From positions 3,410,001 to 3,474,000 of the forward strand of contig NZ_CP041247.1 of NCBI RefSeq assembly GCF_006711645.1: a stretch of 64,000 nt of DNA, read 5' to 3'. Below are positions 1,185 through 15,919 of the stretch, piece by piece. Within the stretch, counting starts at the first letter, position 1; each line of letters begins with the position of its first letter. Position numbers and translations under genes: made by a program. Under the pieces are notes generated by a model that worked only from the letters and a program-made list of their open reading frames with translations, had not been told where the DNA came from and searched no databases. Source of the DNA: Klebsiella electrica. GTDB lineage: Bacteria > Pseudomonadota > Gammaproteobacteria > Enterobacterales > Enterobacteriaceae.

Positions 1185-1715
1185 CTACAGCACGGTGCGT
1201 TTAATCTCCTCAAGCCAGCTCGCCAGCCGCGCTTCGGTCTGGTCGAACTGGTTATCCTGATCCAGTGCCAGCCCAACGAAGCGTTCCCCTTCCAGCGCCA
1301 AAGAGGCGCTGAATTCATAACCCTCATTCGGCCAGCTGCCAATCATCTGCGCGCCGCGTGCGCGCAGGGCGTCGTAGAGCGGGCGCATGCCGCTGACGAA
1401 GTTGTCCGGATAGCCTCTCTGATCGCCGAGGCCGAACAGCGCCACGGTTTTCCCTTTCAGGCTGGCGTCGTCGAGGCCGCTGATAAATTCGCTCCATGAT
1501 TCGCTTTCGCATCCGGCCTCCAGCCCCGGCAGTTGGCCGTCGCCGAGCGTCGGCGTGCCCAGCAGCAGCACCGGATAGGCCATAAAGTCGTCCAGCGTCG
1601 TGCGGTTAATGTTGACCGGGGCATCCGCCAACTCGCCGAGCTGCTTGTGGATCATTTTCGCGATTTTGCGGGTTTTACCGGTATCGGTGCCAAAGAAAAT
1701 ACCAATGTTCGCCAT
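1185..1715 (-). CDS. nifF: NifF, flavodoxin electron donor to nitrogenase
   Basis: A 176-residue flavodoxin. In Klebsiella NifF carries electrons from the NifJ pyruvate oxidoreductase to the Fe protein NifH. The FMN phosphate loop GTDTGKT is at residues 9-15, followed by flavin-contacting segments GTPTLGDG and GLGDQRGYPDNFV, typical of long-chain flavodoxins. The ATG at 1715 is preceded on its strand by an AGGAGCGC-like ribosome site. The gene is transcribed divergently from nifLA and convergently with nifM. Its sigma54 promoter lies about 55 bp upstream of the start, so expression should need RpoN and NifA. Confidence 0.97.
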   Translation of the reverse strand: MANIGIFFGTDTGKTRKIAKMIHKQLGELADAPVNINRTTLDDFMAYPVLLLGTPTLGDGQLPGLEAGCESESWSEFISGLDDASLKGKTVALFGLGDQRGYPDNFVSGMRPLYDALRARGAQMIGSWPNEGYEFSASLALEGERFVGLALDQDNQFDQTEARLASWLEEIKRTVL

Positions 1716-1937: not shown

Positions 1938-1953
1938 GGGCGCACGGTTTGCA
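1938..1953 (+). promoter_or_regulatory. Sigma54 promoter of nifLA
   Basis: GGGCGCACGGTTTGC has GG at 1939-1940 and GC at 1951-1952, spaced by 10 bases, which matches the well-known nifLA promoter as I remember it. Transcription would start near 1964, about 73 bp before the nifL ATG. The known activator here is nitrogen-regulated NtrC. I could not identify NtrC sites with confidence. Confidence 0.88.
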
Positions 1954-2008
1954 TGGTTATCGGGGTTCGGATAAAACCGCGCGATCCCTGTCGCGGTGTC
2001 GGACAAAT

Positions 2009-2024
2009 TGTCATAACTGCGACA
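2009..2024. promoter_or_regulatory. NifA upstream activator site in the nifF-nifL region
   Basis: TGT-N10-ACA, the NifA binding consensus, is exact here. The site is about 250 bp upstream of the predicted nifF transcription start, a normal distance for an enhancer site, but lies inside the transcribed leader of nifL, ending 13 bp before its ATG. A second half-matching element just to its left has TGT and ACA separated by 11 bases. Confidence 0.75.
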
Positions 2025-2036
2025 CAGGAGTTTGCG

Positions 2037-3524
2037 ATGACCCTGAATATGATGCGCGATAACGCCGTGCCGGAGGCGATTGCCGGCGTGCTGACTCAAC
2101 AACATCCGGGGCTGTTTTTTACGATGGTCGAACAGGCATCGGTGGCGATTTCCCTCACCGATGCCCGGGCGAATATTATTTACGCCAACCCGGCTTTTTG
2201 CCGTCAGACCGGCTATTCGCTGGCGCAATTGTTAAACCAAAACCCGCGCCTGCTGGCCAGCAGCCAGACGCCGCGAGCAATCTACCAGGAGATGTGGCAC
2301 ACCCTGCTTCAGCGCCAGCCATGGCGCGGTCAGCTGATTAACCAGCGCCGCGACGGCGGCCTGTATCTGGTGGATATCGACATCACCCCGGTGCTGAATC
2401 CGCAGGGCGAGCTGGAACATTATCTGGCGATGCAGCGGGATATTAGCGTCAGCTATACCCTGGAACAGCGGCTGCGCAATCATATGACGCTGATGGAAGC
2501 GGTGCTGAATAATATCCCCGCCGCCGTGGTGGTGGTGGATGAGCACGATCGGGTGGTGATGGATAACCTCGCCTACAAAACCTTCTGCGCGGACTGCGGC
2601 GGGAAAGAGCTGCTGGTTGAGCTACGGGTTTCCCCGCAGGCGATGGGGCCCGGCGCAGAGCAAATTCTGCCGGTGGTTATCCGCGGCGCGGTCCGCTGGC
2701 TGTCAGTGACCTGCTGGGGGTTGCCCGGCGTCAGCGAAGAAGCCAGCCGCTATTTCGTCGACAGCGCCCCGGCGCGAACGCTGGTGGTGATCGCCGACTG
2801 CACCCAGCAGCGTCAACAGCAGGAGCAGGGCCGCCTCGACCGACTGAAACAGCAGATGACCGCCGGAAAGCTGCTGGCCGCCATCCGCGAATCGCTGGAC
2901 GCCGCGCTGATCCAGCTTAACTGCCCGATCAATATGCTGGCAGCGGCCCGTCGGCTGAACGGTGAAGGCAGCGGCAACGTGGCGCTGGACGCGGCGTGGC
3001 GTGAAGGCGAAGAGGCCATGGCGCGCCTGCAGCGCTGCCGCCCCTCCCTCGAGCTGGAAAGCAACGCCGTCTGGCCGCTGCAGCCCTTCTTTGACGACCT
3101 GTGCGCCCTATACCGCACCCGCTTTGACCACCGCGCGAAACTGCATATTGATATGGCGTCGCCGCATCTGGTGGGCTTTGGCCAACGCACGCAGCTGCTG
3201 GCCTGCTTAAGTTTATGGCTCGACCGCACGCTGGCCCTCGCCGCCGAGCTGCCCTCCGTACCGCTGGAGATAGCGCTTTATGCCGAAGAGGATGAGGGCT
3301 GGCTCTCGCTGTATCTCAACGACAATGTGCCGCTGCTACAGGTGCGCTATACCCACTCCCCCGATGCCTTGAACGCTCCCGGCAAAGGGATGGAACTGCG
3401 GCTGATCCAAACCCTGGTCGCCTACCATCGCGGCGCGATTGAACTGGCTTCGCGCCCGCAGGGGGGGACCAGCCTCGTCATGCGTTTCCCGCTCTTCAAT
3501 ACCCTGGCCGGAGGTGAGCAATGA
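2037..3524 (+). CDS. nifL: NifL, redox/fixed-nitrogen anti-activator of NifA
   Basis: A 495-residue flavoprotein that inhibits NifA when oxygen or fixed nitrogen is present. PAS1, the FAD-binding redox sensor, spans about residues 26-140 and includes ANIIYANPAFCRQTGY; PAS2 covers about 145-260. The C-terminal part resembles a histidine-kinase transmitter, with a glycine-rich nucleotide-binding segment (GKGMELRLIQ, then RPQGGTSLV), but the usual phosphoacceptor H-box is not apparent, as is known for enteric NifL. The ATG at 2037 has AGGAG six bases upstream. An in-frame ATG at 1953 is rejected because it lies upstream of the predicted transcription start. The stop overlaps nifA (ATGA), which couples synthesis of the two partners. 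Confidence 0.97.
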   Translation: MTLNMMRDNAVPEAIAGVLTQQHPGLFFTMVEQASVAISLTDARANIIYANPAFCRQTGYSLAQLLNQNPRLLASSQTPRAIYQEMWHTLLQRQPWRGQLINQRRDGGLYLVDIDITPVLNPQGELEHYLAMQRDISVSYTLEQRLRNHMTLMEAVLNNIPAAVVVVDEHDRVVMDNLAYKTFCADCGGKELLVELRVSPQAMGPGAEQILPVVIRGAVRWLSVTCWGLPGVSEEASRYFVDSAPARTLVVIADCTQQRQQQEQGRLDRLKQQMTAGKLLAAIRESLDAALIQLNCPINMLAAARRLNGEGSGNVALDAAWREGEEAMARLQRCRPSLELESNAVWPLQPFFDDLCALYRTRFDHRAKLHIDMASPHLVGFGQRTQLLACLSLWLDRTLALAAELPSVPLEIALYAEEDEGWLSLYLNDNVPLLQVRYTHSPDALNAPGKGMELRLIQTLVAYHRGAIELASRPQGGTSLVMRFPLFNTLAGGEQ

Positions 3525-5092
3525 GCCATAAATTCGATTCGGATACCACCGTCAGGCGCTTCGATCTCTCCCAGCAATTTACCGCCATGCAGCGGATAAG
3601 CGTCATTTTGAGCCGCGCCACCGAAGCGAGTAAAACGCTGCAGGAGGTATTGAGCGTGTTACATAACGACGCGTTTATGCAGCACGGGATGATTTGCCTG
3701 TACGACAGTCAGCAGGAGATTTTGAGCATCGAAGCACTGCAGCAAACGGAAAATCAGACGCTGCCCGGCAGTACGCAAATTCGCTACCGGCCCGGGGAAG
3801 GCCTGGTTGGTACCGTGCTGGCGCAGGGCCAGTCGCTGGTACTACCGCGCGTGGCCGACGATCAGCGGTTTCTCGACCGTCTCAGTCTGTACGATTATGA
3901 CCTGCCGTTTATTGCCGTACCGCTCATGGGCCCCCATTCCCGGCCTATCGGCGTACTGGCGGCGCAACCGATGGCTCGTCAGGAAGAGCGGCTACCGGCC
4001 TGTACCCGGTTTCTCGAAACTGTCGCCAATCTGATAGCCCAGACGATTCGCCTGATGATCCTGCCGGCCTCTGCCTCACAGCCGCCGCAGGTCGCCAGAA
4101 TTGAGCGGCCGCGCGCCTGTACGCCATCGCGCGGTTTCGGCCTCGAGAATATGGTCGGTAAAAGCCCGGCGATGCGGCAGATTATGGAGATTATTCGTCA
4201 GGTTTCGCGCTGGGATACTACGGTACTGGTACGCGGCGAAAGCGGTACCGGGAAAGAGCTTATCGCCAATGCCATTCACCATAATTCACCGCGCGCCGCT
4301 GCGGCTTTCGTCAAATTCAACTGCGCGGCGCTGCCTGATACTCTGCTGGAGAGCGAGCTGTTCGGTCATGAGAAAGGCGCGTTTACCGGCGCGGTGCGCC
4401 AGCGGAAAGGCCGCTTTGAACTGGCGGATGGCGGGACTCTGTTTCTGGATGAGATCGGCGAAAGCAGCGCCTCGTTTCAGGCTAAGCTGCTGCGAATTCT
4501 GCAAGAGGGAGAAATGGAGCGCGTCGGCGGCGATGAAACCCTGCGCGTCAACGTGCGCATCATCGCGGCGACCAATCGCCATCTGGAAGAAGAGGTGCGG
4601 CTGGGCCATTTCCGCGAGGATCTTTACTATCGCCTGAACGTGATGCCCATCGCCCTGCCCCCGCTGCGCGAACGTCAGGAGGATATCGCCGAACTGGCGC
4701 ACTTTCTGGTGCGTAAAATCGCTCAGCACCAGGGGAGAACGCTGCGTATCAGCGATGGGGCCATTCGCCTGTTGATGGAGTACAGCTGGCCGGGCAACGT
4801 CCGCGAACTGGAAAACTGCCTTGAGCGTTCGGCGGTGATGTCGGAGAGCGGCCTGATAGACCGTGACGTGATCCTGTTCAACCATCGCGATAATCCGCCG
4901 AAAGCGCAACCCATCAGCGGTCCGGCGGAGGACGGCTGGCTCGATAACAGCCTTGACGAGCGCCAGCGGTTGATTGCGGCCCTCGAAAAAGCCGGCTGGG
5001 TGCAGGCCAAAGCGGCGCGACTGCTGGGGATGACGCCGCGCCAGGTAGCGTATCGGATTCAGATAATGGATATCACCATGCCGCGACTGTGA
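3521..5092 (+). CDS. nifA: NifA, sigma54-dependent activator of nif genes
   Basis: A 523-residue enhancer-binding protein. An N-terminal GAF domain (about 36-180) is followed by an AAA+ domain with Walker A GESGTGKE (239-246), the sigma54-contacting loop GAFTGA (286-291) and Walker [11 protein letters not shown]-terminal helix-turn-helix contains [17 protein letters not shown]. The linker between the AAA+ and DNA-binding domains lacks the Cys-x4-Cys motif of oxygen-sensitive rhizobial NifA, which fits control by NifL. It binds TGT-N10-ACA sites such as those at 2009 and 5099. It overlaps nifL by 4 bp and is followed by the nifBQ promoter region. Confidence 0.97.
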
Positions 5093-5255: not shown

Positions 5256-6662
5256 ATGACTTCCTGCTCTTCTTTTCCTCGCGGCACAGCCTGCCACTCA
5301 GCGGACGATGGCGCACTCACGCCGATCGTTGCCGATAAAGTCGCCGCGCATCCCTGCTACTCTCGTCATGGGCATCACCGTTTTGCACGGATGCATCTGC
5401 CGGTCGCGCCCGCCTGCAATTTGCAGTGCAACTACTGTAATCGCAAATTTGATTGCAGCAATGAATCCCGCCCCGGGGTATCGTCAACGCTGCTGACGCC
5501 TGAACAGGCGGTCTTAAAAGTGCGTCAGGTCGCGCAGGCGATCCCGCAGCTGTCGGTAGTGGGCATCGCCGGGCCCGGCGACCCGCTCGCCAACATCACC
5601 CGCACCTTTCGCACCCTGGAGCTGATCCGTGAGCAGCTACCGGACCTGAAATTATGCCTGTCGACCAACGGACTGATGCTGCCTGACGCGGTAGATCGCC
5701 TGCTGGATGTCGGCGTTGACCACGTCACGGTCACCATTAATACCCTCGACGCGGAGATTGCCGCGCAAATCTACGCCTGGCTATGGCTGGACGGCGAACG
5801 CTACAGCGGGCGCGAAGCGGGAGAAATCCTGATTGCCCGTCAGCTTGAGGGCGTGCGCAGGCTGACCGCCAAAGGCGTGCTGGTGAAAATAAATTCCGTG
5901 CTGATCCCCGGCATTAACGATAGCGGCATGGCCGACGTCAGCCGCGAACTGCGAAGCCGCGGCGCGTTTATCCATAACATTATGCCGCTCATTGCCCGAC
6001 CGGAGCACGGCACGGTGTTTGGCCTCAACGGCCAGCCGGAGCCGGACGCAGAACTGCTTGCCGCGACCCGCAGCCAGTGCGCAGAGGTGATGCCGCAGAT
6101 GACCCACTGCCACCAGTGCCGCGCCGATGCCATCGGAATGCTCGGCGAAGACCGCAGCCAGCAGTTTACCCAGCTTCCGGCGCCAGAGAGCCTCCCGGCC
6201 TGGCTGCCGATCCTCCACCAGCGCGCGCAGCTTCACGCCAGTATCGCGACCCGCGGCGAATCGGAAGCCGATGACGCCTGTCTGGTCGCCGTAGCGTCAA
6301 GCCGTGGGGATGTGATTGATTGCCACTTTGGCCATACCGACCGGTTCTCTATTTACAGCCTGTCGGCCGCCGGCATGGTGCTGGTCAACGAACGGTTTAC
6401 GCCGAAATATTGCCAGGGGCGCGATGACTGCGAACCGCAGGATAACGATGCCAGATTTGCGGCGATCCTCGACCTGCTGGCGGACGTGAAAGCCGTATTT
6501 TGCGTGCGTATCGGCCACACGCCGTGGCAAAAGCTGGAACAGCAAGGCATTGAGCCGTGCGTTGACGGGGCATGGCGGCCGGTCTCCGAGGTGTTGCCCG
6601 ACTGGTGGCAACAGCGCCGCGGGAGCTGGCCTGCCGCGTTGCCGCACAAGGGGGTCGCCTGA
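5256..6662 (+). CDS. nifB: NifB, radical SAM synthase of the FeMo-co precursor
   Basis: A 468-residue protein that fuses two [4Fe-4S] clusters with an SAM-derived carbide to make the 8Fe core (NifB-co) of FeMo-cofactor. The radical SAM motif CNLQCNYC supplies C54, C58 and C61; further cysteines nearby (C4, C13, C34, C67) and the C-x2-C pair HCHQC can serve the substrate clusters. The C-terminal ~110 residues form a NifX-like domain (DCHFGHTDRF), as in the long enteric form of NifB. The start is the ATG at 5256 with GAAGG upstream. The stop overlaps the nifQ start by one base (TGATG). Confidence 0.97.
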   Translation: MTSCSSFPRGTACHSADDGALTPIVADKVAAHPCYSRHGHHRFARMHLPVAPACNLQCNYCNRKFDCSNESRPGVSSTLLTPEQAVLKVRQVAQAIPQLSVVGIAGPGDPLANITRTFRTLELIREQLPDLKLCLSTNGLMLPDAVDRLLDVGVDHVTVTINTLDAEIAAQIYAWLWLDGERYSGREAGEILIARQLEGVRRLTAKGVLVKINSVLIPGINDSGMADVSRELRSRGAFIHNIMPLIARPEHGTVFGLNGQPEPDAELLAATRSQCAEVMPQMTHCHQCRADAIGMLGEDRSQQFTQLPAPESLPAWLPILHQRAQLHASIATRGESEADDACLVAVASSRGDVIDCHFGHTDRFSIYSLSAAGMVLVNERFTPKYCQGRDDCEPQDNDARFAAILDLLADVKAVFCVRIGHTPWQKLEQQGIEPCVDGAWRPVSEVLPDWWQQRRGSWPAALPHKGVA

Positions 6663-7165
6663 TGGCGCCGCGCGACTGGCTAAGACGCCTGTGGCTACTG
6701 TATCACGCGGGCAAAGGCAGTTTTCCGCTGCGCATGGGGCTGAGTGCGCACGACTGGCAGGCGCTGAGGCGACGGTTGGGCGAGGAGGAAACGCCGCTGG
6801 ATGGCGAGGTGCTACTCCGTCGTCGCCTGATGGCGGAACTGAATGCCACCCGCGAAGAGGAACGTCAGCAGTTGAGCGCATGGCTGGCGGACTGGATGCA
6901 GCAGGGAGCCGGACCGATGGCGCAGATTATCGCCGAGGTTTCGCTGGCGTTTAACCATCTCTGGCAGGACCTTGGCCTGGCGTCGCGCGCCGAATTGCGC
7001 CTGCTGATGAGCGACTGTTTTCCGCAGCTGGTGGTGATGAACGAACACAATATGCGCTGGAAAAAGTTCTTTTATCGTCAACGCTGTCTGCTGCAGCAAG
7101 GAGAAGTTATCTGCCGCTCGCCAAGCTGTGACGAGTGTTGGGAGCGCAGCGCTTGTTTTGAGTGA
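6662..7165 (+). CDS. nifQ: NifQ, molybdenum donor for FeMo-cofactor
   Basis: A 167-residue protein that delivers molybdenum to NifEN/NifH during FeMo-co assembly. The C-terminus carries the family's cluster motif C-x4-C-x2-C-x5-C (CRSPSCDECWERSAC), which binds a Mo-Fe-S cluster. A longer frame begins upstream within nifB, but the ATG at 6662 overlaps the nifB stop and gives the standard length. Translation is probably coupled to nifB. It is the last gene of the nif cluster on this side. Confidence 0.95.
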   Translation: MAPRDWLRRLWLLYHAGKGSFPLRMGLSAHDWQALRRRLGEEETPLDGEVLLRRRLMAELNATREEERQQLSAWLADWMQQGAGPMAQIIAEVSLAFNHLWQDLGLASRAELRLLMSDCFPQLVVMNEHNMRWKKFFYRQRCLLQQGEVICRSPSCDECWERSACFE

Positions 7166-7434
7166 CGGATATGTTCAGGCCGTTCAAACTGGTTTGTTCA
7201 AGATATGCGGTTTTCATCAGGGGAATCGACCAGGCGTTGCAGGGTGTGGAGAGGCAGCCCAACGGGTTTTACCCAGTCAGACCTGTCAGCGATAGCCCGG
7301 CAATGGGTGAGTGAATCCCCGCTGCCACCGGCATGAACGCTTTGGCTGAAAGACGTATGGATTCGGTGTCGTGTCCTCCTGTTGATTGACTCCGCCTGCG
7401 GCGCAGCCGGTCACCACTCAGCAAGCGCGGAGCG

Positions 7435-7463
7435 AAAAAAAACCCGCAGAGATAGGGCGGGTT
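7435..7463 (-). terminator. Rho-independent terminator-like hairpin, minus strand
   Basis: Read on the minus strand, AACCCGC and GCGGGTT form a 7-bp stem with a 9-nt loop, followed by eight T. It probably ends the tetR/efflux operon, about 140 bp past the permease stop. Confidence 0.75.
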
Positions 7464-7544
7464 GATTCAAATACAAATCCATTGCGTGCAAATAACATCA
7501 CAATAACCGGGCGTTATTTTATGACGTCCATCACAAAAACGTCA

Positions 7545-7562
7545 CCCCCCAGTTCGGGGGGG
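7545..7562. repeat. GC-only inverted repeat
   Basis: Six C (7545-7550) and seven G (7556-7562) flank AGTTC, forming a short, very stable hairpin 38 bp beyond the efflux permease stop. It may act as an early terminator or mRNA 3' stabiliser; no long T-run follows. Confidence 0.5.
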
Positions 7563-7599
7563 AACTCTGCTCGCGTTGTTCATCCCGCGCGCTACGAAG

Positions 7600-10500
7600 T
7601 TATGCCCGTTGTTCCGCATGGGGCTGAATCTCAGGGCGGATCCGGAACCAGATCGCATACATCGCCGGCAAGAAGACCAGCGTCATGATGGTGCCTCCTA
7701 ACGTTCCGCCAATCAGCGTATAGGCAAGGGTTCCCCAGAACACCGAATGGGTCAGGGGAATAAACGCCAGCACCGCGGCCATTGCCGTCAGGAGTACGGG
7801 TCTTGCCCGCTGTACCGTAGCTTCTATCACCGCATGATACGGATCGAGACCTTCCCGCTCGTTATGATGGATTTGGCCGATAAGAATCAGCGTATTACGC
7901 ATAAGGATGCCCGAAAGCGCGATCAGACCGACAAGAGCATTGATGCCAAACGGCTGATTGAACAGCAGCAGCGCAGGAACCACGCCGATCAGCCCGAGCG
8001 GAGCGGTAAGAAACACCATCACCATGGCCGACATGGAACGTACCTGCAAAATGATGATCAGCAGCGTCAGGGCGACCATTATGGGGAACAACGGCATCAT
8101 CGCCTGAGTGGCTTTGCCCGACTCCTCAATCGAGCCCGCCATGTCGATGCGGTATCCGGGCGGGAGCGAATCCACAATCGGCTGAAGCTGCTTCATGATG
8201 GCGGCGGAAACGTCCGGCGGCTGAAGATTATCGGCAATGTCGCCCCGCACGGTAATGGTGGGCGTGCGATCGCGACGGCGCAGCAACGGGTCTTCCATTG
8301 TGACCTCAACCTCCCCGATTTGAGCCAGAGGAATGCGCTGTCCGGCATTGCCTGCCAGGGTCAAACCCGCAATTTTCTCCGGATCCAGACGGATATCGCC
8401 CGCGGCGCGCCCCATCACCTGAACCGAACGAATATCTTCCCGTACCGAGGTCACGGGAATACCCGATAACAGGAACTGGAGCTGCTGGGCCACGGCATTG
8501 GAGGTTAAACCGGTTGCCTGCAGACGGTCCTGATCGAGGGTGAAATGTAAGACCGGAACCTTCGACCCCCAGTCGGTGTTGACGGTCCTCATCATCGGGC
8601 TTGCCTGCAGCACGGCCTTAACCTTATCGGCGATATCGCGCAATTTATCGCTATCGGGCCCCATCACTCGCCATGCCACCGGGAACGGTGAATAGGGGCC
8701 AAACACCAGTTGCGTCACGCGCACGCGCGCTTCAGGCGCCAGCCCGTTGGCCACGGCTTCCCGCAGTCGGAGTTTGAGCGCATCGCGTGATTGCTGACTG
8801 TCCGTCAACACCACTATCTTTGCAAACGACGGGTCGGGTAGCTCGGGCGCCATCGCCAGATAAAAACGCGGCGAGCCCTGGCCAATATAGGCGGTAACCA
8901 TTTTCGCTTCCGGCTGTTTTTGCAAAAACGCCTCTATTTTGGCCGCTGCGGCGCTGGTCTGGCCAATAGAGGTACCGTAGGGCATCTGCACTTCGACCAG
9001 AACTTCCGGCCGGTCAGAGGTGGGGAAAAATTGTTTTTTCACCAGCCCCATTCCGAGGATGGCCAGAACGAAAATAGCGACGACGGAACCGGCCACGCCC
9101 CATTTCCTTGCGATAACGCGGGCCAGCATACGGCGGAAGCGGTTGTAGCGCGGCGTGTCATAGATGGCGCTATGGCCGCCTTCCACTTTGGCAATATCCG
9201 CCAGCATCTTCACCCCCAGATACGGCGTGAAAACAACGGCAACCAGCCACGAGGCGATCAGGGCGAGGCCGACAATCCAGAACATATTGCTGGTGTATTC
9301 CCCGGCGGTGGACTGGGCAAAGCCATTAGGCATAAAGCCAATGGCCGTCACCAGCGTTCCGGCCAGCATCGGCGCGGCAGTATGGCTCCAGGCGTAGGCC
9401 GAAGCGTTAATTCTGTCGTAGCCCTCCTCCATTTTCACCACCATCATTTCGATGGCGATAATGGCGTCATCGACCAGCAGCCCCAGCGCCAGAATGAGCG
9501 AGCCGAGGGTGACGCGGTCAAAGTTGATCCCGGCGGCTTCCATCACCACAAAAACAATCGCCAGCGTCAGGGGGACCGCCGCCGCAACCACGACGCCCAC
9601 GCGCCAGCCCATGCTGACAAAACAGACCATCATCACAACCAGCAGGGCGGCGAAGAACTTGATCATGAATTCGTCGACCGACGCGCTGATATTCACCGCC
9701 TGATCGGTGACTTTCGTCAGGGTCATCCCCAGCGGCATACTGGCATTGATTTTTGCCGCTTCGCCATCCAGCGCTTTCCCTAACGCCAGGCCATTCCAGC
9801 CTTCGCGCATGACAATCCCCAGCAGCAGCGCCGGCTGATCCTGGTTACGAATCTGCAAAGTGGGAGGGTCTTCGTAACCTCGCTCAACCGTTGCCACATC
9901 GGACAACTTGAGTGTCTTACCCTGAGCGATCAATGGCGTATCGCGGATCTTCTGCAATTCATCGAAAGCGCCATCGAGGCGGATAAAAATTTGCGCGCCG
10001 CGAGTCTCAATGGAACCCGCCGGGGTTAAGGTGTTCTGGCTGTTCAGCGCATCGAAAATATCCTGCGCAGAGAGCCCCAGCGTCGCCAGACGCTGATGCG
10101 AGAAGGAGATATAAATCCGTTCAGCCTGCTCGCCGATAATATTCACTTTCTTCACGCCAGGGACGTGCAGAAACTGCTGGCGTAATCGTTCGGCATCACG
10201 AACTAACAGACGCTGCGGCTCTCCTTTCGCTTTCAGCGCAAAGAGCGCGAAGGTCACGTCGGAGAATTCATCGTTGATCATCGGCCCCAGCACGCCGGCG
10301 GGGAGATTTTTGGCTTCATCGCCCAGCTTTTTTCGCGCCTGATAGAACTCTTCCTGCACCTGAGACGGCGGCGTGCTGTCCTGTAATGACAGCGTGATAA
10401 ACGCCATGCCGGGGCGGGTATAGGTTTCCGTGCGGTCATACCACTTGAGCTCCTGCAGGCGTTTTTCCAGCGGCTCGGCAACCTGATCCTGGATTTCCTG

Positions 10501-10683
10501 CGCCGTCGCTCCGGGCCAGACGCTGATAATGGTCATCTGCTTGACCGTAAAGGGCGGATCTTCCGCTCGCCCGAGGCCAAAAAACGCGTAAATACCGGCA
10601 ATCGTCAGCAGAATAATCAAAAACAGGGTGATCGAGCGCTCGCGTACCGCCAGCGCTGACAGATTGAAGCGTTTTGCGCTCAT
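7600..10683 (-). CDS. RND efflux pump permease, HAE-1-like
   Basis: A 1027-residue inner-membrane proton/drug antiporter of the resistance-nodulation-division superfamily. The family plan is visible: one transmembrane helix at 17-36, a large periplasmic loop, helices from about 340, then the second half of the repeat (helix near 540, periplasmic loop, C-terminal helices). The proton-relay aspartate pair lies in helix 4 (GLLVDD, D405-D406), as in drug exporters. It overlaps the adaptor gene by 4 bp (ATGA). No outer-membrane channel gene is present, so TolC is the likely partner. The substrate cannot be predicted. It is not a clear AcrB, MdtB/C or OqxB orthologue from the motifs I can recall. 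Confidence 0.9.
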   Translation of the reverse strand: MSAKRFNLSALAVRERSITLFLIILLTIAGIYAFFGLGRAEDPPFTVKQMTIISVWPGATAQEIQDQVAEPLEKRLQELKWYDRTETYTRPGMAFITLSLQDSTPPSQVQEEFYQARKKLGDEAKNLPAGVLGPMINDEFSDVTFALFALKAKGEPQRLLVRDAERLRQQFLHVPGVKKVNIIGEQAERIYISFSHQRLATLGLSAQDIFDALNSQNTLTPAGSIETRGAQIFIRLDGAFDELQKIRDTPLIAQGKTLKLSDVATVERGYEDPPTLQIRNQDQPALLLGIVMREGWNGLALGKALDGEAAKINASMPLGMTLTKVTDQAVNISASVDEFMIKFFAALLVVMMVCFVSMGWRVGVVVAAAVPLTLAIVFVVMEAAGINFDRVTLGSLILALGLLVDDAIIAIEMMVVKMEEGYDRINASAYAWSHTAAPMLAGTLVTAIGFMPNGFAQSTAGEYTSNMFWIVGLALIASWLVAVVFTPYLGVKMLADIAKVEGGHSAIYDTPRYNRFRRMLARVIARKWGVAGSVVAIFVLAILGMGLVKKQFFPTSDRPEVLVEVQMPYGTSIGQTSAAAAKIEAFLQKQPEAKMVTAYIGQGSPRFYLAMAPELPDPSFAKIVVLTDSQQSRDALKLRLREAVANGLAPEARVRVTQLVFGPYSPFPVAWRVMGPDSDKLRDIADKVKAVLQASPMMRTVNTDWGSKVPVLHFTLDQDRLQATGLTSNAVAQQLQFLLSGIPVTSVREDIRSVQVMGRAAGDIRLDPEKIAGLTLAGNAGQRIPLAQIGEVEVTMEDPLLRRRDRTPTITVRGDIADNLQPPDVSAAIMKQLQPIVDSLPPGYRIDMAGSIEESGKATQAMMPLFPIMVALTLLIIILQVRSMSAMVMVFLTAPLGLIGVVPALLLFNQPFGINALVGLIALSGILMRNTLILIGQIHHNEREGLDPYHAVIEATVQRARPVLLTAMAAVLAFIPLTHSVFWGTLAYTLIGGTLGGTIMTLVFLPAMYAIWFRIRPEIQPHAEQRA

Positions 10684-11789
10684 GGTTTGCTCCCGGCCTG
10701 AACAGCATCGTGTTGTTCAGCCAGGCGGACGGCTTCGCCTTCGTGCAGCAGATGTGCCCCTAACGCCACAATCTTCTCGCCCGGCAGCACATCGCCGGTC
10801 ACCTGCACCGCTTCCTCACCCACGCTAAGCACCTTGACGGGCTGCCAGACGACCGTTGTCGGCGGCGCGGTAATTCGCCAGATGCCGGGCCCTTTGCCCG
10901 CATCGTAAAGCGCAGCCAGCGGCACCTGCATCACCGGGCGTTCCTCGCTATTTTTTGGGATTTGCAGCGTCACGGTGGCTCCCAGCGGGGCGTTCGCCAG
11001 AGGGCCCTCCAGCACATATCGCGCCTCGAATGTGCGGGTCGCCGCATCGGCCGAATCGGACAGCAGCCGCAGCCTGGCGACGACAGGCTGTGTTTCGTTG
11101 CCATAGCGCGTGGCCTGCGCTTCGCTACCGATGGCGGGACGCAACGTTTCCGGCAGTTGCACCAGCGCTTCGCGCTGCCCCGCTCTCGCCAGCCGGATCA
11201 CCGCCTGCCCGGCGCTGACCACCTGGCCGGGTTCGCCGAGCGTCTCCATTACCACGCCGTCGGAATCGGCCAGCAGTACAGCATAGCCCGTCGCGTTTTG
11301 CGCCACGTTTGCCTGAGCCTGGGCGGCGCTGAGATCCGCTGTAGCAGAATCGGCCGTCGCTTTAATCTGGTCATACTCAGCTGCGGAGACGGCGCCGGAG
11401 GCAACGAGGCCGCGATAGCGTGCCTCATCGCTGGTGGCTTTTCTTGCGCGCGCCCTGGCGGCATCAACGGCCTGGCGCTGAGCCAGTGCCTGCAGCTTCA
11501 GGTCGGCAGGGTCCAGCCGCATCAGCGGCTGACCGCGTTTAACGGTCTGGCCGGTATCAACAACGCGTTCGAGGATCTTACCCTGCACCCTGAAACCAAG
11601 ATCGCTTTGCGTTCTTGCGACGACCACGCCGGTGAAGGTACGAGAAGTCTTGTTTGCAAGTTCTACGGCCGCGACTCTGACGAGCGGCGGCCGCGTGCGC
11701 GGATCGTCATTCGCGGAATTGTCGCCGCAGGCCCCCAGGATGAACGGCAGGAGGCAAACGGCAAAACGGGCTGAATTAAGCCTGAGCAT
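10680..11789 (-). CDS. RND efflux membrane-fusion (adaptor) lipoprotein
   Basis: A 369-residue periplasmic adaptor that links the RND permease to an outer-membrane channel. The N-terminus has a lipoprotein signal with lipobox LGAC (Cys21). It then shows the adaptor order: beta segment LGFRVQGKI, lipoyl half GQTVKRGQPLMRLDP, a long alpha-hairpin (about 85-160, rich in Ala, Arg and Gln), the second lipoyl half GEPGQVVSAGQAVIRL, and beta-barrel and membrane-proximal domains. The stop overlaps the permease start. It is expressed from a promoter region that contains the TetR palindrome at 11836-11859. Confidence 0.9.
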   Translation of the reverse strand: MLRLNSARFAVCLLPFILGACGDNSANDDPRTRPPLVRVAAVELANKTSRTFTGVVVARTQSDLGFRVQGKILERVVDTGQTVKRGQPLMRLDPADLKLQALAQRQAVDAARARARKATSDEARYRGLVASGAVSAAEYDQIKATADSATADLSAAQAQANVAQNATGYAVLLADSDGVVMETLGEPGQVVSAGQAVIRLARAGQREALVQLPETLRPAIGSEAQATRYGNETQPVVARLRLLSDSADAATRTFEARYVLEGPLANAPLGATVTLQIPKNSEERPVMQVPLAALYDAGKGPGIWRITAPPTTVVWQPVKVLSVGEEAVQVTGDVLPGEKIVALGAHLLHEGEAVRLAEQHDAVQAGSKP

Positions 11790-11835
11790 GGGAACCTTTG
11801 TGAATTATCAGGATGGGATCCGTATTCTCAGACTA

Positions 11836-11859
11836 GTGACCAATAAAGTCAATGGTCAC
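11836..11859. promoter_or_regulatory. Palindromic operator overlapping the efflux operon promoter
   Basis: GTGACCA and TGGTCAC are perfect 7-bp inverted arms separated by 10 bases in the 73-bp gap between tetR and the adaptor gene. On the minus strand a -35-like TTGACT sits inside the palindrome, with a weak -10 (GAGAAT) 17 bases on. Binding of the adjacent TetR-family protein here would block transcription of the pump genes. The assignment to that regulator is inferred from position. Confidence 0.72.
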
Positions 11860-11862
11860 AAA

Positions 11863-12477
11863 TCAGGGGGCGAGGCTTCTTAAAATCAGTGAGGAAAGCA
11901 GTACCGCTGCTTTGGGAGCCGCTTCGAGATTGAACTGCAGCTGCACGGGGTTAACGAAAGGACACATCACCAGATATACCGCATTGGTGGCCTCATCCAG
12001 CGGCGTTTTCCTTTCAAACTCCCCGTTCTTCCTGCCTTCAGCCAGAATGCTCTCAATCAGTTTCAGCAGATGCGCTGCATACTTTTCCGTTGAAGGCCAC
12101 TTTTCCCGCGCGGCTACGGCGGCTATGTCGTAAAGCTTGCGATCGTGGAAAAACAGTTCACTCCCCGCCTCGGTGAGTGCCCCGAAGAGACGACGGAGTT
12201 TCTCGCTGGCTGACGGCGCATCGGCGATTGCGGAATCGACCACCTCCATGATCAACGACAGGCGGTTAGCACAGATCACCTCGCCGATAGCCTGTTTGGA
12301 ATCAAAAAATTTATAGATATAGGACTTTGAAAAACCTATAGATTTAGCAAGTTCTGCCACGGTGGTTTTTTCATAGCCGTAATGGCCGAAATGCGCAAAA
12401 GCAGCTTCGACAATTTGCTCTCGCACGCTGTGATCAAGTGGACCACGTGATGGTGGGACGTTCATATTCTTAGTCAT
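11863..12477 (-). CDS. TetR-family transcriptional repressor of the efflux operon
   Basis: A 204-residue regulator. The N-terminal helix-turn-helix covers about residues 18-62, with TTVAELAKSIGFSKSYIYKFF as recognition region. The rest is a helical ligand-binding domain without close relatives I recognise. The ATG at 12477 is used; a second ATG three codons later is also possible. It sits upstream of, and in the same direction as, the adaptor and permease genes, with a 24-bp palindrome in between, which is the usual layout of a local efflux repressor. Two ATGGTTA repeats (minus strand) occur in its own upstream region and might contribute to autoregulation. Confidence 0.88.
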   Translation of the reverse strand: MTKNMNVPPSRGPLDHSVREQIVEAAFAHFGHYGYEKTTVAELAKSIGFSKSYIYKFFDSKQAIGEVICANRLSLIMEVVDSAIADAPSASEKLRRLFGALTEAGSELFFHDRKLYDIAAVAAREKWPSTEKYAAHLLKLIESILAEGRKNGEFERKTPLDEATNAVYLVMCPFVNPVQLQFNLEAAPKAAVLLSSLILRSLAP

Positions 12478-12830
12478 GTTTTCAGCTTAGCGTGATAACC
12501 ATTGATTGACAACGCGTAACCATTTTAGAAATTAGTCACAACCTCAGCTTGTTTCAAGGTCGCGCAATGTTCTCCTCGTAGGTGACTGCTGGTACGCAGA
12601 GCCGCGGTTTCTCGTGGGATAAGCGGTTGGATCGGCTACGGATGCTCCAGTATCGAAATTGTACCAGACAAACCGCCCTGCCAGTAAAAGCGCCGAATCC
12701 CTGTCTCAAAGCTTATCTCAATGGCAGAAGTGAATGCCACCGCTGGAATGGCCTCTGCCGCGCGGGAGAAGAGTGTCCTGTCGCGACAACCTCAGCGACT
12801 AGCAGGCTTATCAGGCAAACGGTGGCATGA

Positions 12831-13028
12831 TGCAAAGCGGGAAGTGGGCTAAAGATCCCCGGCACCTTACACGACATCAAGGCAAAGGCGATATCAGACT
12901 TTGAAGGGAGCAGCAAAGATAAGCAGTTATTTAGTGGACACAAGACCGAACTGCAGGTGGCAACATATGACAGGAAGGTGAAAATTTCTCCGACTCTCAA
13001 CGTTCCACCGCTGCAGAAAGACGAGTGA
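12831..13028 (+). pseudogene. C-terminal remnant of a phage-type tyrosine integrase
   Basis: Sixty-five codons are open between an in-frame TGA at 12828-12830 and a TGA at 13026-13028, without a start. The translation carries the C-terminal catalytic boxes of tyrosine recombinases: LHDIKAK (an HxxK variant of the HxxR box), then SGHKTELQVATYDRK, with the GH box and the nucleophilic Tyr nine residues after His. The N-terminal two thirds of the integrase are missing; DNA upstream to 12478 shows no intact gene. It lies 103 bp from the 3' end of tRNA-Ser, the usual place for an integrase of a tRNA-targeting phage or island. Confidence 0.82.
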
Positions 13029-13049
13029 TCAGGAGTGCCAAAGCGGGAA

Positions 13050-13081
13050 ATATACCAAGCGAATATACCAACACTATACCA
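13050..13081. repeat. Three short direct repeats between integrase remnant and tRNA-Ser
   Basis: ATATACCA occurs at 13050-13057 and 13063-13070, and CTATACCA at 13074-13081, giving a shared TATACCA at 13- and 11-bp spacing. Short spaced repeats like these beside an integrase gene resemble arm-type integrase binding sites. That reading is inference from position. Confidence 0.45.
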
Positions 13082-13093
13082 GGAGCCCAAAGC

Positions 13094-13122
13094 AAAAAGG
13101 GGCTACCTTTCGGTAACCCCTT
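13094..13122 (-). terminator. Terminator of the tRNA-Ser gene
   Basis: On the minus strand AAGGGGTTACC and GGTAGCCCCTT form an 11-bp stem with a GAAA tetraloop and one mismatch, followed by T residues. It lies 9 bp after the tRNA 3' end. Confidence 0.85.
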
Positions 13123-13130
13123 CTTTTATT

Positions 13131-13218
13131 TGGCGGAAGCGTAGAGATTCGAACTCTAGAACCCTTTCGGGTCGCCGGTTTTCAAGACCGGTGCCTTCAA
13201 CCGCTCGGCCACGCTTCC
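13131..13218 (-). tRNA. serT: tRNA-Ser(UGA)
   Basis: An 88-nt gene with encoded CCA at the 3' end (complement of 13131-13133). It has the long variable arm of class II tRNAs, the D-loop start GGCCGAGCGGTTGAAGGC, the anticodon TGA in the loop CTTGAAAA, and the T-loop GTTCGAATC. In E. coli the equivalent serT lies next to yccA, which is also two genes away here, supporting the orthology. Its 3' end points toward the integrase remnant and the nif side, making it the probable attachment site. Confidence 0.96.
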
Positions 13219-13362: not shown

Positions 13363-14991
13363 TTAATGTTTTTTGATGTACATATCTTTAGTGAAATAGT
13401 ACCCCAGCTTATCAGGCGTAAATCCCCCCACCCACGGCTTCACCAGGTGCGTGCGAACATAGTGATAAACCGGAACCGCTGGCACCTCTTTCGCCAAAAG
13501 ATCCTCCGCCTGCTGGTAGTACTTGCCGCGTGCCACCACATCCGACGCTTTGGCGGCATTCTGTAAGGCTTCGTCATAGGCAGGATTACTGTACTGGCTG
13601 GTATTCTCACTATCGCCGGTGCGGAAGTTATTCAGGAAAGTAGCGGCATCGTCATAGTCGGCAATCCACGCATAGCGCACCGCGTCAAAATTGTGCGTGT
13701 GCATGGTGTCGAGCATCGTCTTCCACTCCTGGTTTTGCAGCTTCGCCTCCACACCGAGGTTTTTCTTCCACATCGAACTGGCGGCGATCGCCACGCGCTG
13801 GTGTGATTCCGAGGTGTTGTACAGCAGATTAAACACCAGCGGGTGACTATCCGAGTACCCCGCTTCGCTCAGCAGTTTTTTGGCTTCGGCAATGCGTTTC
13901 TCGCGCGGCCAGCTGGCGTATTCCGGATTTTGCAGTTTTACGCCGCCAATATCAGGCTGGCTAATCAGCCAGGCCGGGCGTTGTCCCTGCCCCAGTACTT
14001 TTTCCGCAATGATGTCTTTATCCAGCGCCATGTTCAGCGCCAGCCGGACACGCGGATCGTTAAATGGCGGCCGGGTGGTGTTGAATTCGTAATAATAGGT
14101 CGCCAGCTGCGGCGCCACGTTCAGCTGATCGCCCATGGTCTTTTTAAGCTGCGCGAACTGGTTAATCGGCAGCGTATAAACAATGTCGATTTCACCCGCT
14201 TTATAACGGTTAACGTCCGCCGCTTCTGAATGAATCGGCAGCCAGGTCACTTCATTGATGACCGTATGCTCATTGTCCCAATAACGCGGGTTACGTTCGG
14301 CCACGATGCGCTCGTTCACGACCCACGCGGACAGCTTATACGGACCGCTGGTCACGATATGCTCCGGTTTGGTCCACTGTTCGCCAAAGCGGTTTACCAG
14401 CACTTTATCAATCGGAACCAGCGAAGGGTGCGCCAGCATCGCTAAAAACGCCGCGTTCGGCTGCGTTAATCTAACTTCCAGCGTCGCATCATCAACCGCT
14501 TTCACGCCTAGCGTCTCCGGCGCTTTTTTCCCCTCGGCAATCTCCTGCGCGTTGACAATATGCATATTGCCCGGGTAGCTGGAATAAGGTGATGCCGTCA
14601 GAGGAGAGACCAGACGCTGCCAGCTCCAGACAATATCCTGCGCGGTAATGGCGGTCCCGTCAGACCAGGTCATGCCCGGACGTAAATGAAAGGTCCAGAC
14701 GGTGTTCTCTTTATTTTCCCACTTTTCCGCCAGCCGCGGCTGTATTTCACCTGCCGGTGAGACGCTGACCAGCCCCTCGAAAAGATCGCTGATAATATTA
14801 AACTCAACGTCACTCTCGACCTTATGCGGATCCAGAGATGCCGGCTCGCTGCCGTTATTTCTCACCAGCTCCTGCTTCTCTGCCAGCACCGTCCCCGGGG
14901 GAACCTGAGCGGCAAATACCGTGGCCGTCGTGCAGAGTAAACCGAGAGCCAGCAAAGCCTGCGTGATGTGATTGTATTTTTGTGATTTCAT
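13363..14991 (-). CDS. Oligopeptide-type ABC transporter periplasmic binding protein (OppA/MppA-like)
   Basis: A 542-residue solute-binding protein of family 5. A Sec signal peptide spans about residues 1-27 (ending TVFAA). The mature start LVRNNGSEPASLDPHK and the internal RPGMTWSDGTAITAQD are classic for the peptide-binding OppA family, and the length matches OppA. The ATG at 14991 has AAGGGAT just upstream; an upstream in-frame start would add 14 residues before the signal and is rejected. No permease or ATPase genes adjoin it, so it probably feeds a transporter encoded elsewhere, such as Opp. E. coli lacks a gene at this position. Ligand unknown: murein tripeptide or other peptides are possible. 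Confidence 0.85.
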   Translation of the reverse strand: MKSQKYNHITQALLALGLLCTTATVFAAQVPPGTVLAEKQELVRNNGSEPASLDPHKVESDVEFNIISDLFEGLVSVSPAGEIQPRLAEKWENKENTVWTFHLRPGMTWSDGTAITAQDIVWSWQRLVSPLTASPYSSYPGNMHIVNAQEIAEGKKAPETLGVKAVDDATLEVRLTQPNAAFLAMLAHPSLVPIDKVLVNRFGEQWTKPEHIVTSGPYKLSAWVVNERIVAERNPRYWDNEHTVINEVTWLPIHSEAADVNRYKAGEIDIVYTLPINQFAQLKKTMGDQLNVAPQLATYYYEFNTTRPPFNDPRVRLALNMALDKDIIAEKVLGQGQRPAWLISQPDIGGVKLQNPEYASWPREKRIAEAKKLLSEAGYSDSHPLVFNLLYNTSESHQRVAIAASSMWKKNLGVEAKLQNQEWKTMLDTMHTHNFDAVRYAWIADYDDAATFLNNFRTGDSENTSQYSNPAYDEALQNAAKASDVVARGKYYQQAEDLLAKEVPAVPVYHYVRTHLVKPWVGGFTPDKLGYYFTKDMYIKKH

Positions 14992-15259
14992 ATCCCTTGC
15001 CTTTATTATGCTTCGTTTGTACCCTCTCCACACTTAGCCACAGAACAGCAATAACGCAATATCTTTCAGTAACCTATCAGATTCCGATCGGGTTCCTGAA
15101 ACCAAACACACAAACACACCACCTTTTCATCATTTATTAGCATAATATGCTGCATGATTGCCTCGGGGGTCTAAGTAAAGATGGGTAAAAGCACTATGGC
15201 TTCCGTCGTGGTTTTTTTATGCTTCATTATTAATTACATCTGTCATAAGAGAGTGACTC

Positions 15260-15919
15260 ATGGATCGTATTATTACGTCGTCGCGTGACCGTTCATCGCT
15301 GCTCAGTACGCATAAAGTTCTGCGGAACACCTATTTCCTCCTCAGTCTGACGCTGGCATTTTCCGCCATTACGGCAACGGCCAGCACGGTGCTGATGCTG
15401 CCTTCTCCAGGGCTGATTCTGACGCTGGTGGGGATGTATGGTCTGATGTTCCTGACCTATAAACTGGCCAATAAGCCGACGGGTATTCTGGCGGCCTTCG
15501 CTTTCACCGGCTTCCTGGGTTATATCCTTGGGCCAATGCTCAACGCCTATCTGTCTGCGGGCATGGGTGACCTGATTGGTCTGGCGCTGGGCGGTACCGC
15601 ACTGGTCTTCTTCTGCTGCTCGGCCTATGTGCTGACCACTCGTAAAGACATGTCCTTCCTCGGCGGTATGCTGATGGCAGGCGTAGTGGTGGTGCTGATC
15701 GGTATGGTGGCTAACATCTTCCTGCAGCTGCCGGCTCTGCACCTGGCCATCAGCGCGGTGTTTATCCTGATTTCTTCAGGCGCAATCCTGTTTGAAACCA
15801 GCAATATCATCCGCGGCGGTGAGACCAACTATATCCGCGCTACCGTCAGCCTGTACGTGTCGCTGTACAACATCTTCGTCAGCCTGCTGAGCATCCTTGG
15901 CTTCGCAAGCCGGGACTAA
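15260..15919 (+). CDS. yccA: YccA, inner-membrane modulator of FtsH (BI-1 family)
   Basis: A 219-residue protein with seven hydrophobic segments after a short cytosolic N-terminus ([20 protein letters not shown]), characteristic of the Bax-inhibitor-1/TMBIM family. In E. coli YccA is both a substrate and an inhibitor of the FtsH protease and protects the SecY translocon when it jams; the N-terminal cytosolic tail is what FtsH grips. The ATG at 15260 follows AAGAGAGTG. It is followed by a strong terminator, so it appears monocistronic. Confidence 0.95.

Follow-up and report, generated by a model that had tools for sequence, protein, structure and literature searches.

A serT insertion hotspot in Klebsiella where a lost prophage, an older RND operon and a transferred nif cluster probably have separate histories

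Nitrogen-fixation (nif) genes are present in K. variicola and K. quasipneumoniae (PMC5541162) as well as in strain 342, are absent from MGH78578 (PMC2453333), and have been transferred between Klebsiella species in the K. pneumoniae complex (PMC7082575), as far as the accessible portions of these sources report. A literature search found no report of a Klebsiella nif cluster at the tRNA-Ser gene serT, an absence that is unproven because most subscription papers lay outside the search. Here, we describe such an arrangement in a window, meaning the whole stretch of 64,000 nucleotides that was analysed (G000:C1:3410001-3474000, from an assembly of 5.79 Mb), in which the right end of a nif cluster, an RND operon, a fragment of a tyrosine integrase and serT follow one another from left to right. 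Coordinates to the left of the window are written as negative numbers. The original prediction for this DNA read the order as an island, comprising at least the RND genes and perhaps all of nif, that the integrase had delivered to serT.

The comparison with related genomes makes another account likely, in which three separate histories lie side by side at a serT hotspot: a prophage that has been lost, an older RND operon and a transferred nif segment. The three were probably not delivered together. The genus set consisted of 20 genomes including the window's own, one per species, the genus being taken as Klebsiella in the wide sense; it includes K. grimontii (G016), K. michiganensis (G012), Raoultella terrigena (G009), K. 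indica (G014) and 'Enterobacter sp. 10-1' (G008). The nearest relatives of the window genome are two nif-less species, G011 and G017, which share 95% identity with it over 9.3 kb of backbone and are called the sisters below. The features around serT are as follows.

13131-13218, minus strand: tRNA-Ser(UGA) gene serT (ARAGORN), 3' end pointing left
12831-13028, plus strand: C-terminal remnant of a tyrosine integrase, reading as a C-terminus that ends in a stop codon
13050-13071, plus strand: phage-type attachment (att) arm of two ATATACCAA units, as beside the G029 integrase (serT-flank alignment)
13089-13192, minus strand: integrase-side att region, terminator 13089-13130 plus tRNA 3' part 13132-13192, extent inferred from G029
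12759-12830, no strand: possible further prophage remainder of 72 bp, from the point where RND homology with the sisters stops (12758) to the remnant
13363-15033, minus strand: OppA-like binding protein on the backbone side (Pfam SBP_bac_5)
15260-15919, plus strand: yccA on the backbone side (NCBIfam equivalog)

The positions that had been predicted for the tRNA and the integrase remnant are borne out, as is their spacing: the two are convergent, with 103 bp between the stop codon of the remnant and the 3' end of serT, which is the sole tRNA gene that ARAGORN finds within the window. The remnant holds only the last 65 codons, and its catalytic domain is incomplete. It has no Pfam match at E <= 0.1 and is absent from the list of Phage_integrase matches of its own genome. 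It does match PHROG 14425 (E 2.9e-17; labelled as unknown function), as does an uninterrupted serT integrase, to which the remnant is 81% identical over 54 residues. This last match has an E value of 3e-27 against the local 651 bases and 5e-23 against 164 kb of the genome, for which the reversed 164 kb served as a control and gave a best E value of 4.1. Relatives annotated as integrases in phage records include those of Citrobacter phage Chris1 (77.8%) and Salmonella phage ST64B (71.7%); the accessible text of the ST64B paper gives no attachment site.

Integrases of this type were sought in 198 genomes of the family and matched in 50, and the 30 loci listed were scanned for tRNA genes. A tRNA-Ser gene (15 UGA and 5 CGA) lies 67-139 bp past the matched stretch in 20 of the 30 listed loci, and in all 20 the 3' ends of tRNA and integrase face each other; the remaining listed loci comprise four with tRNA-Leu(UAA) and six without a tRNA in the DNA covered. 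At an identity of at least 60%, 19 of 24 listed loci, the window's own counted, end 67-139 bp from the 3' end of a tRNA-Ser gene. Judged by this placement and by the similarity to the uninterrupted integrase, the remnant belongs to a tRNA-Ser-targeting family, a point on which the original prediction is supported.

One of these loci, in G029, a genome of another genus, provides the uninterrupted counterpart. Its integrase of 386 amino acids adjoins serT, and the tRNA end recurs 47.6 kb leftwards. The prophage-like element between them is flanked by a 107-bp repeat, composed of the terminator and the 3' part of the tRNA, whose copies are 93.5% alike with one identical run of 65; its open reading frames (ORFs) look phage-like by eye, the integrase alone having been run against families. 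The att region at 13089-13192 of the window corresponds to this repeat, with the terminator conserved. Moreover, the att-arm pattern has one match in 164 kb, beside the integrase stop codon, and 304 bp of the window align at 75% identity with that end of the G029 element which carries the integrase. The shared arm and this alignment suggest that serT of the window once received an element of the G029 type. The predicted att repeat of the tRNA 3' end was not found: a 32-mer of the tRNA end, with up to three mismatches allowed, occurs once genome-wide, and 12-mers of the tRNA have no other same-strand match within 164 kb. Since no second copy was found, the element appears to be gone, and the integrase fragment is best read as the scar of a prophage lost from serT. 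A terminator base (GGGGC/GGGGT) was considered as a phage-specific mark and rejected, because G005 and G010 have T despite phage-type arms; G009 and G014 have C.

The surroundings of serT are asymmetric. Within 8 kb to its left, at least 1 kb is common to only 8 of 190 genome pairs (20 genomes: the window's own, 18 others of the genus and G027 of another genus, with G012 excluded because its contig stops 41 bp from serT). On the right, at least 1 kb is common to 210 of 210 pairs among 21 genomes, G027 having been chosen because of its right-side match. The contrast between a variable left and a constant right side is real. Together with the tRNA-Ser-targeting family, it supports the proposed role of serT as an integration site, and serT is an insertion hotspot in Klebsiella. 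Further integrase fragments adjoin serT in G005, G009 and G007 (tblastn). The far side of the tRNA is conserved backbone with yccA, as predicted, but yccA does not come first; the OppA-like gene, found in 20 of 20 genus genomes, stands between it and the tRNA. Each sister carries a pair of tRNA-Ser(UGA) genes (L065 16825-18085; L066 16543-18092), with a separate terminator for either copy, on the two sides of one gene. This gene encodes 392 amino acids in G017, without a Pfam match at E <= 0.1, and is shorter in G011.

The second component of the locus is the RND operon, whose three genes are borne out by family matches.

7600-10683, minus strand: RND permease of the AcrB/AcrD/AcrF family (Pfam ACR_tran; NCBIfam subfamily matches below cut-off only)
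10680-11789, minus strand: RND periplasmic adaptor (NCBIfam RND_mfp, above cut-off)
11863-12477, minus strand: TetR-type regulator (Pfam TetR_N)

Cargo of the lost element would be expected to be missing from relatives that lack the integrase, and the operon is not. Between 7287-7292 and 12758, and again from serT onwards, the sisters' DNA is collinear with that of the window, which places RND some 0.3 kb away from serT in either species, and neither DNA comparison nor tblastn reveals an integrase fragment between the two. In the RND tree, the window genome groups with G011 and G017 and then with K. michiganensis, which follows the backbone, and five homologues located elsewhere in other genomes stand apart at 76.5-77.4% identity. 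The window genome and K. michiganensis share 85.8% identity in RND and 84.3% in the backbone. In K. michiganensis, the operon lies about 30 kb left of serT, a position judged by synteny with K. grimontii. In the latter, the same region still contains the regulator together with the block's left end. Because RND adjoins serT in both sisters, where the fragment is missing, and its tree follows the backbone, the operon looks like an older resident left of serT rather than cargo of this integrase, and the proposal that the integrase brought it is not supported.

The third component is nif, the right end of which lies in the window.

1185-1715, minus strand: flavodoxin, nifF by position (NCBIfam flavodoxin)
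1953-3524, plus strand: nifL (NCBIfam equivalog; start codon as given by the ORF tool)
3521-5092, plus strand: nifA (NCBIfam equivalog)
5256-6662, plus strand: nifB (NCBIfam equivalog)
6662-7165, plus strand: nifQ (Pfam NifQ)
7166-7220, no strand: right-hand border of the nif segment, where nif homology stops at 7150-7171 and homology to the flank left of RND in G017 starts at about 7220

Of the predicted genes, nifL, nifA, nifB and nifQ are confirmed by family matches, and nifF as a flavodoxin only. The trees of nif and backbone are in conflict. In the nifU-Q block, the window genome groups with K. grimontii and K. michiganensis at 100/100, and a grouping with G008 and G009 is rejected (p-AU 0.0019); the nifJ-Y block gives the same grouping. 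At the backbone locus, it groups with the sisters at 100/100, and a grouping with K. grimontii and K. michiganensis is rejected (p-AU 4e-7). Uncorrected distances to K. grimontii are 0.162 in the backbone and 0.088 and 0.068 in nif, and those to K. michiganensis are 0.157 in the backbone and 0.094 and 0.069 in nif. For nifU-nifQ, the ratio of nif to backbone distance is 0.54-0.60 between the window genome and these two species, compared with 0.83-1.06 in 16 other between-clade pairs. Base composition does not settle the matter: nif has 58.8-61.5% G+C against 55.8-56.1% in the backbone, but the nif genes of K. grimontii at his have 61.7% as well. The tree conflict, which involves one backbone locus, and the presence of other DNA at this place in the sisters support the proposed horizontal acquisition, and nif does look horizontally acquired, in an arrival separate from that of RND.

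The nif segment, which contains ribE-nifJ...nifQ, reaches from -25253 to about 7220 (32.5 kb), with an ABC-transporter operon on one side and RND on the other, and nif lies at 3.39-3.42 Mb of the chromosome. In its place, the sisters carry 4.2-4.5 kb of other genes, among them a LuxR-type regulator, two proteins without a Pfam match and an acetyltransferase-like ORF (G011, by eye). Left of -25253, collinearity with the window resumes and extends, a 2.7-kb insert aside, to -62631 in G011 and to -48699 in G017, the limit of the comparison. The original prediction expected nif-negative relatives to join serT to the gene left of nif; G011 and G017 instead keep RND at serT together with the 4.2-4.5 kb. 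The right end of nif homology falls at 7150-7171 in the five clusters compared, and the left end coincides with the nifJ stop codon in G016, G012 and G013 and continues through ribE in G008 and G009. NifJ has 1171 amino acids in both the window genome and K. grimontii, and the larger nif ORFs are closely alike.

No integrase can be tied to nif. The chromosome has no tyrosine-integrase (Phage_integrase) match from 2.92 to 4.11 Mb, transposases not having been searched, and repeats between the two nif-segment borders are limited to matches of at most 13 bases. Homologous exchange in the shared flanks is a possible mechanism, as is an older, erased insertion.

Across the genus, nif was found in 8 of 20 genomes. 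It lies at his in four (G012, G016, G013 and G015), at a Raoultella site in two (G008 and G009) and at serT in the window genome; in G014 it is on separate contigs and was assigned to no site. In G016 and G013, nifQ is followed by yeeF, a LysR gene, yeeZ and hisG, by eye except for hisG; G012 was placed by collinearity with G016 and G015 by coordinates. The two Raoultella-site genomes have a common right flank and ribE beside nifJ. The predicted departure from the his-linked context is confirmed, since the flanks of the window genome's own his site are about 50 bp apart and nif does not lie between fusA-like/sbcB and yeeF-his. One could picture nif as a discrete wandering cassette with nifJ-nifQ ends, three chromosomal sites and no recognisable recombinase, for which serT is one landing place, but we hold this to be rather doubtful.

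Some further features of the segment were observed. The riboflavin synthase gene ribE (equivalog; L003 17111-17719, window -22889 to -22281) adjoins nifJ in the window genome and both Raoultella-site genomes, and is not at that place in the his-site genomes compared. A block of 6.2 kb (-13339 to -7093; L004 6757-12617) splits nif between nifY and nifE and encodes an SbmA/BacA-like ABC transporter and a TonB receptor, as well as proteins that look FecR- and FecI-like by eye; in G008, a stretch 66-70% identical to it lies left of ribE beside that genome's own nif cluster. Near the left nif border, an ORF of 173 amino acids (L003 14885-15406) has a partial profile match of the SMP-30/royal-jelly type and looks truncated.

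Several points weigh against the separation into three histories. Of the 24 listed integrase loci that reach 60% identity, five lack a tRNA in the DNA covered, one of these at a contig end. Just left of RND in G017, a 141-bp stretch (L066 10448-10586) matches the integrase fragment at 71% at the DNA level, although tblastn at E <= 0.01 missed it. This possible relic would fit successive serT insertions that drive older ones outwards, and would also be compatible with RND itself having arrived as an old insertion at serT. The backbone tree was built on one locus of 4.6 kb, and with a single genome per species, within-species variation falls outside the sample. In addition, ratios of nif to backbone distance within clades spread from 0.31 to 1.55, and the nifJ-Y block of K. 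indica also has a ratio of 0.53 to the window genome. Furthermore, the nif path to K. grimontii is 0.11 compared with a backbone path of 0.05 to G011; if rates were equal, nif would predate the split from the sisters, so that an early gain followed by loss in the sisters would be possible.

This last possibility, in which an older transfer had put nif left of serT by the time of the common ancestor and nif was then lost from the sisters, is the strongest alternative, though we consider it unlikely. It agrees with a nif divergence from K. grimontii that exceeds the backbone divergence from the sisters, and the replacement of about 4.3 kb common to both sisters, whose copies are 90% alike, could represent a single loss. 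However, blastn of the sisters' gap against 164 kb of the window genome shows no nif remnant, and a nifHDK probe has no match in any of the 12 nif-less genomes.

A single serT island, in which the prophage or island of this integrase carried both RND and nif and then lost its left end, is very improbable. The gene order nif-RND-integrase-tRNA, the specificity of the integrase for tRNA-Ser and the G017 relic are what it would predict, but the sisters hold RND at serT with neither the fragment there nor nif, the RND tree is at odds with the nif tree, the search for a second att copy gave none, and the RND operon of K. michiganensis lies well away from serT. On the same grounds, delivery of RND and nif as one island is not supported, nor is that of nif by this integrase, since nif is located on the far side of RND with a history of its own. 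The original prediction named the absence of an att repeat, along with a nif order and phylogeny conserved among relatives, as evidence for an ancestral arrangement; no such repeat was found, but nif order and tree are not conserved. A move of nif within the genome from his to the serT hotspot, suggested by the empty his site and by nif at his in four relatives, is scarcely credible, because a within-lineage move keeps a vertical phylogeny, yet the nif and backbone trees conflict, and because the his site is likewise empty in G003, G004, G008, G009, G011, G017 and G018.

Returning to the three separate histories, the course of events was probably as follows. A tRNA-Ser-targeting prophage would have entered the lineage at the 3' end of serT and been deleted later, with the integrase C-terminus, the att arm and the integrase-side att region staying beside an intact tRNA. 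The TetR-adaptor-RND operon was probably already resident left of serT and was not prophage-borne. A segment of about 32 kb, ribE-nifJ...nifQ, was probably transferred from the K. oxytoca group or a relative of it; the direction, date and mechanism of the transfer are inferred.

What read as one island from the sequence is thereby separated into three events. At serT, a hotspot for insertion in Klebsiella, the scar of a prophage can be traced, and the number of chromosomal nif sites in the genus rises to three. If this site holds across strains, the movement of 20 nif genes without an integrase of their own would become testable through empty and filled sites. The account of how the parts of this locus belong together is corrected accordingly.

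Compared with known systems, the locus resembles tRNA-integrated prophages and islands of Enterobacteriaceae in the convergent arrangement of integrase and tRNA, whose 3' ends are 103 bp apart, and in its att arm and terminator, but differs in that 65 codons are left and no second att copy was found. With the his-linked nif of Klebsiella it has in common the nifJ-nifQ block, including the NifJ length in K. grimontii, and it differs by its serT location, ribE beside nifJ and the 6.2-kb insert between nifY and nifE. As in the K. pneumoniae complex, cross-species nif is indicated by tree conflict; the accessible text of that study infers K. variicola as donor, whereas the nif genes of the window are nearest to those of K. 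grimontii and K. michiganensis among the genomes compared (PMC7082575). The nif island of Pseudomonas stutzeri is similar in having no integrase or transposase genes of its own, as far as its accessible description goes, although transposases were not searched in the window; that island occupies a conserved insertion site which is not at a tRNA, whereas nif occupies three sites in the Klebsiella genus (PMC4174501).

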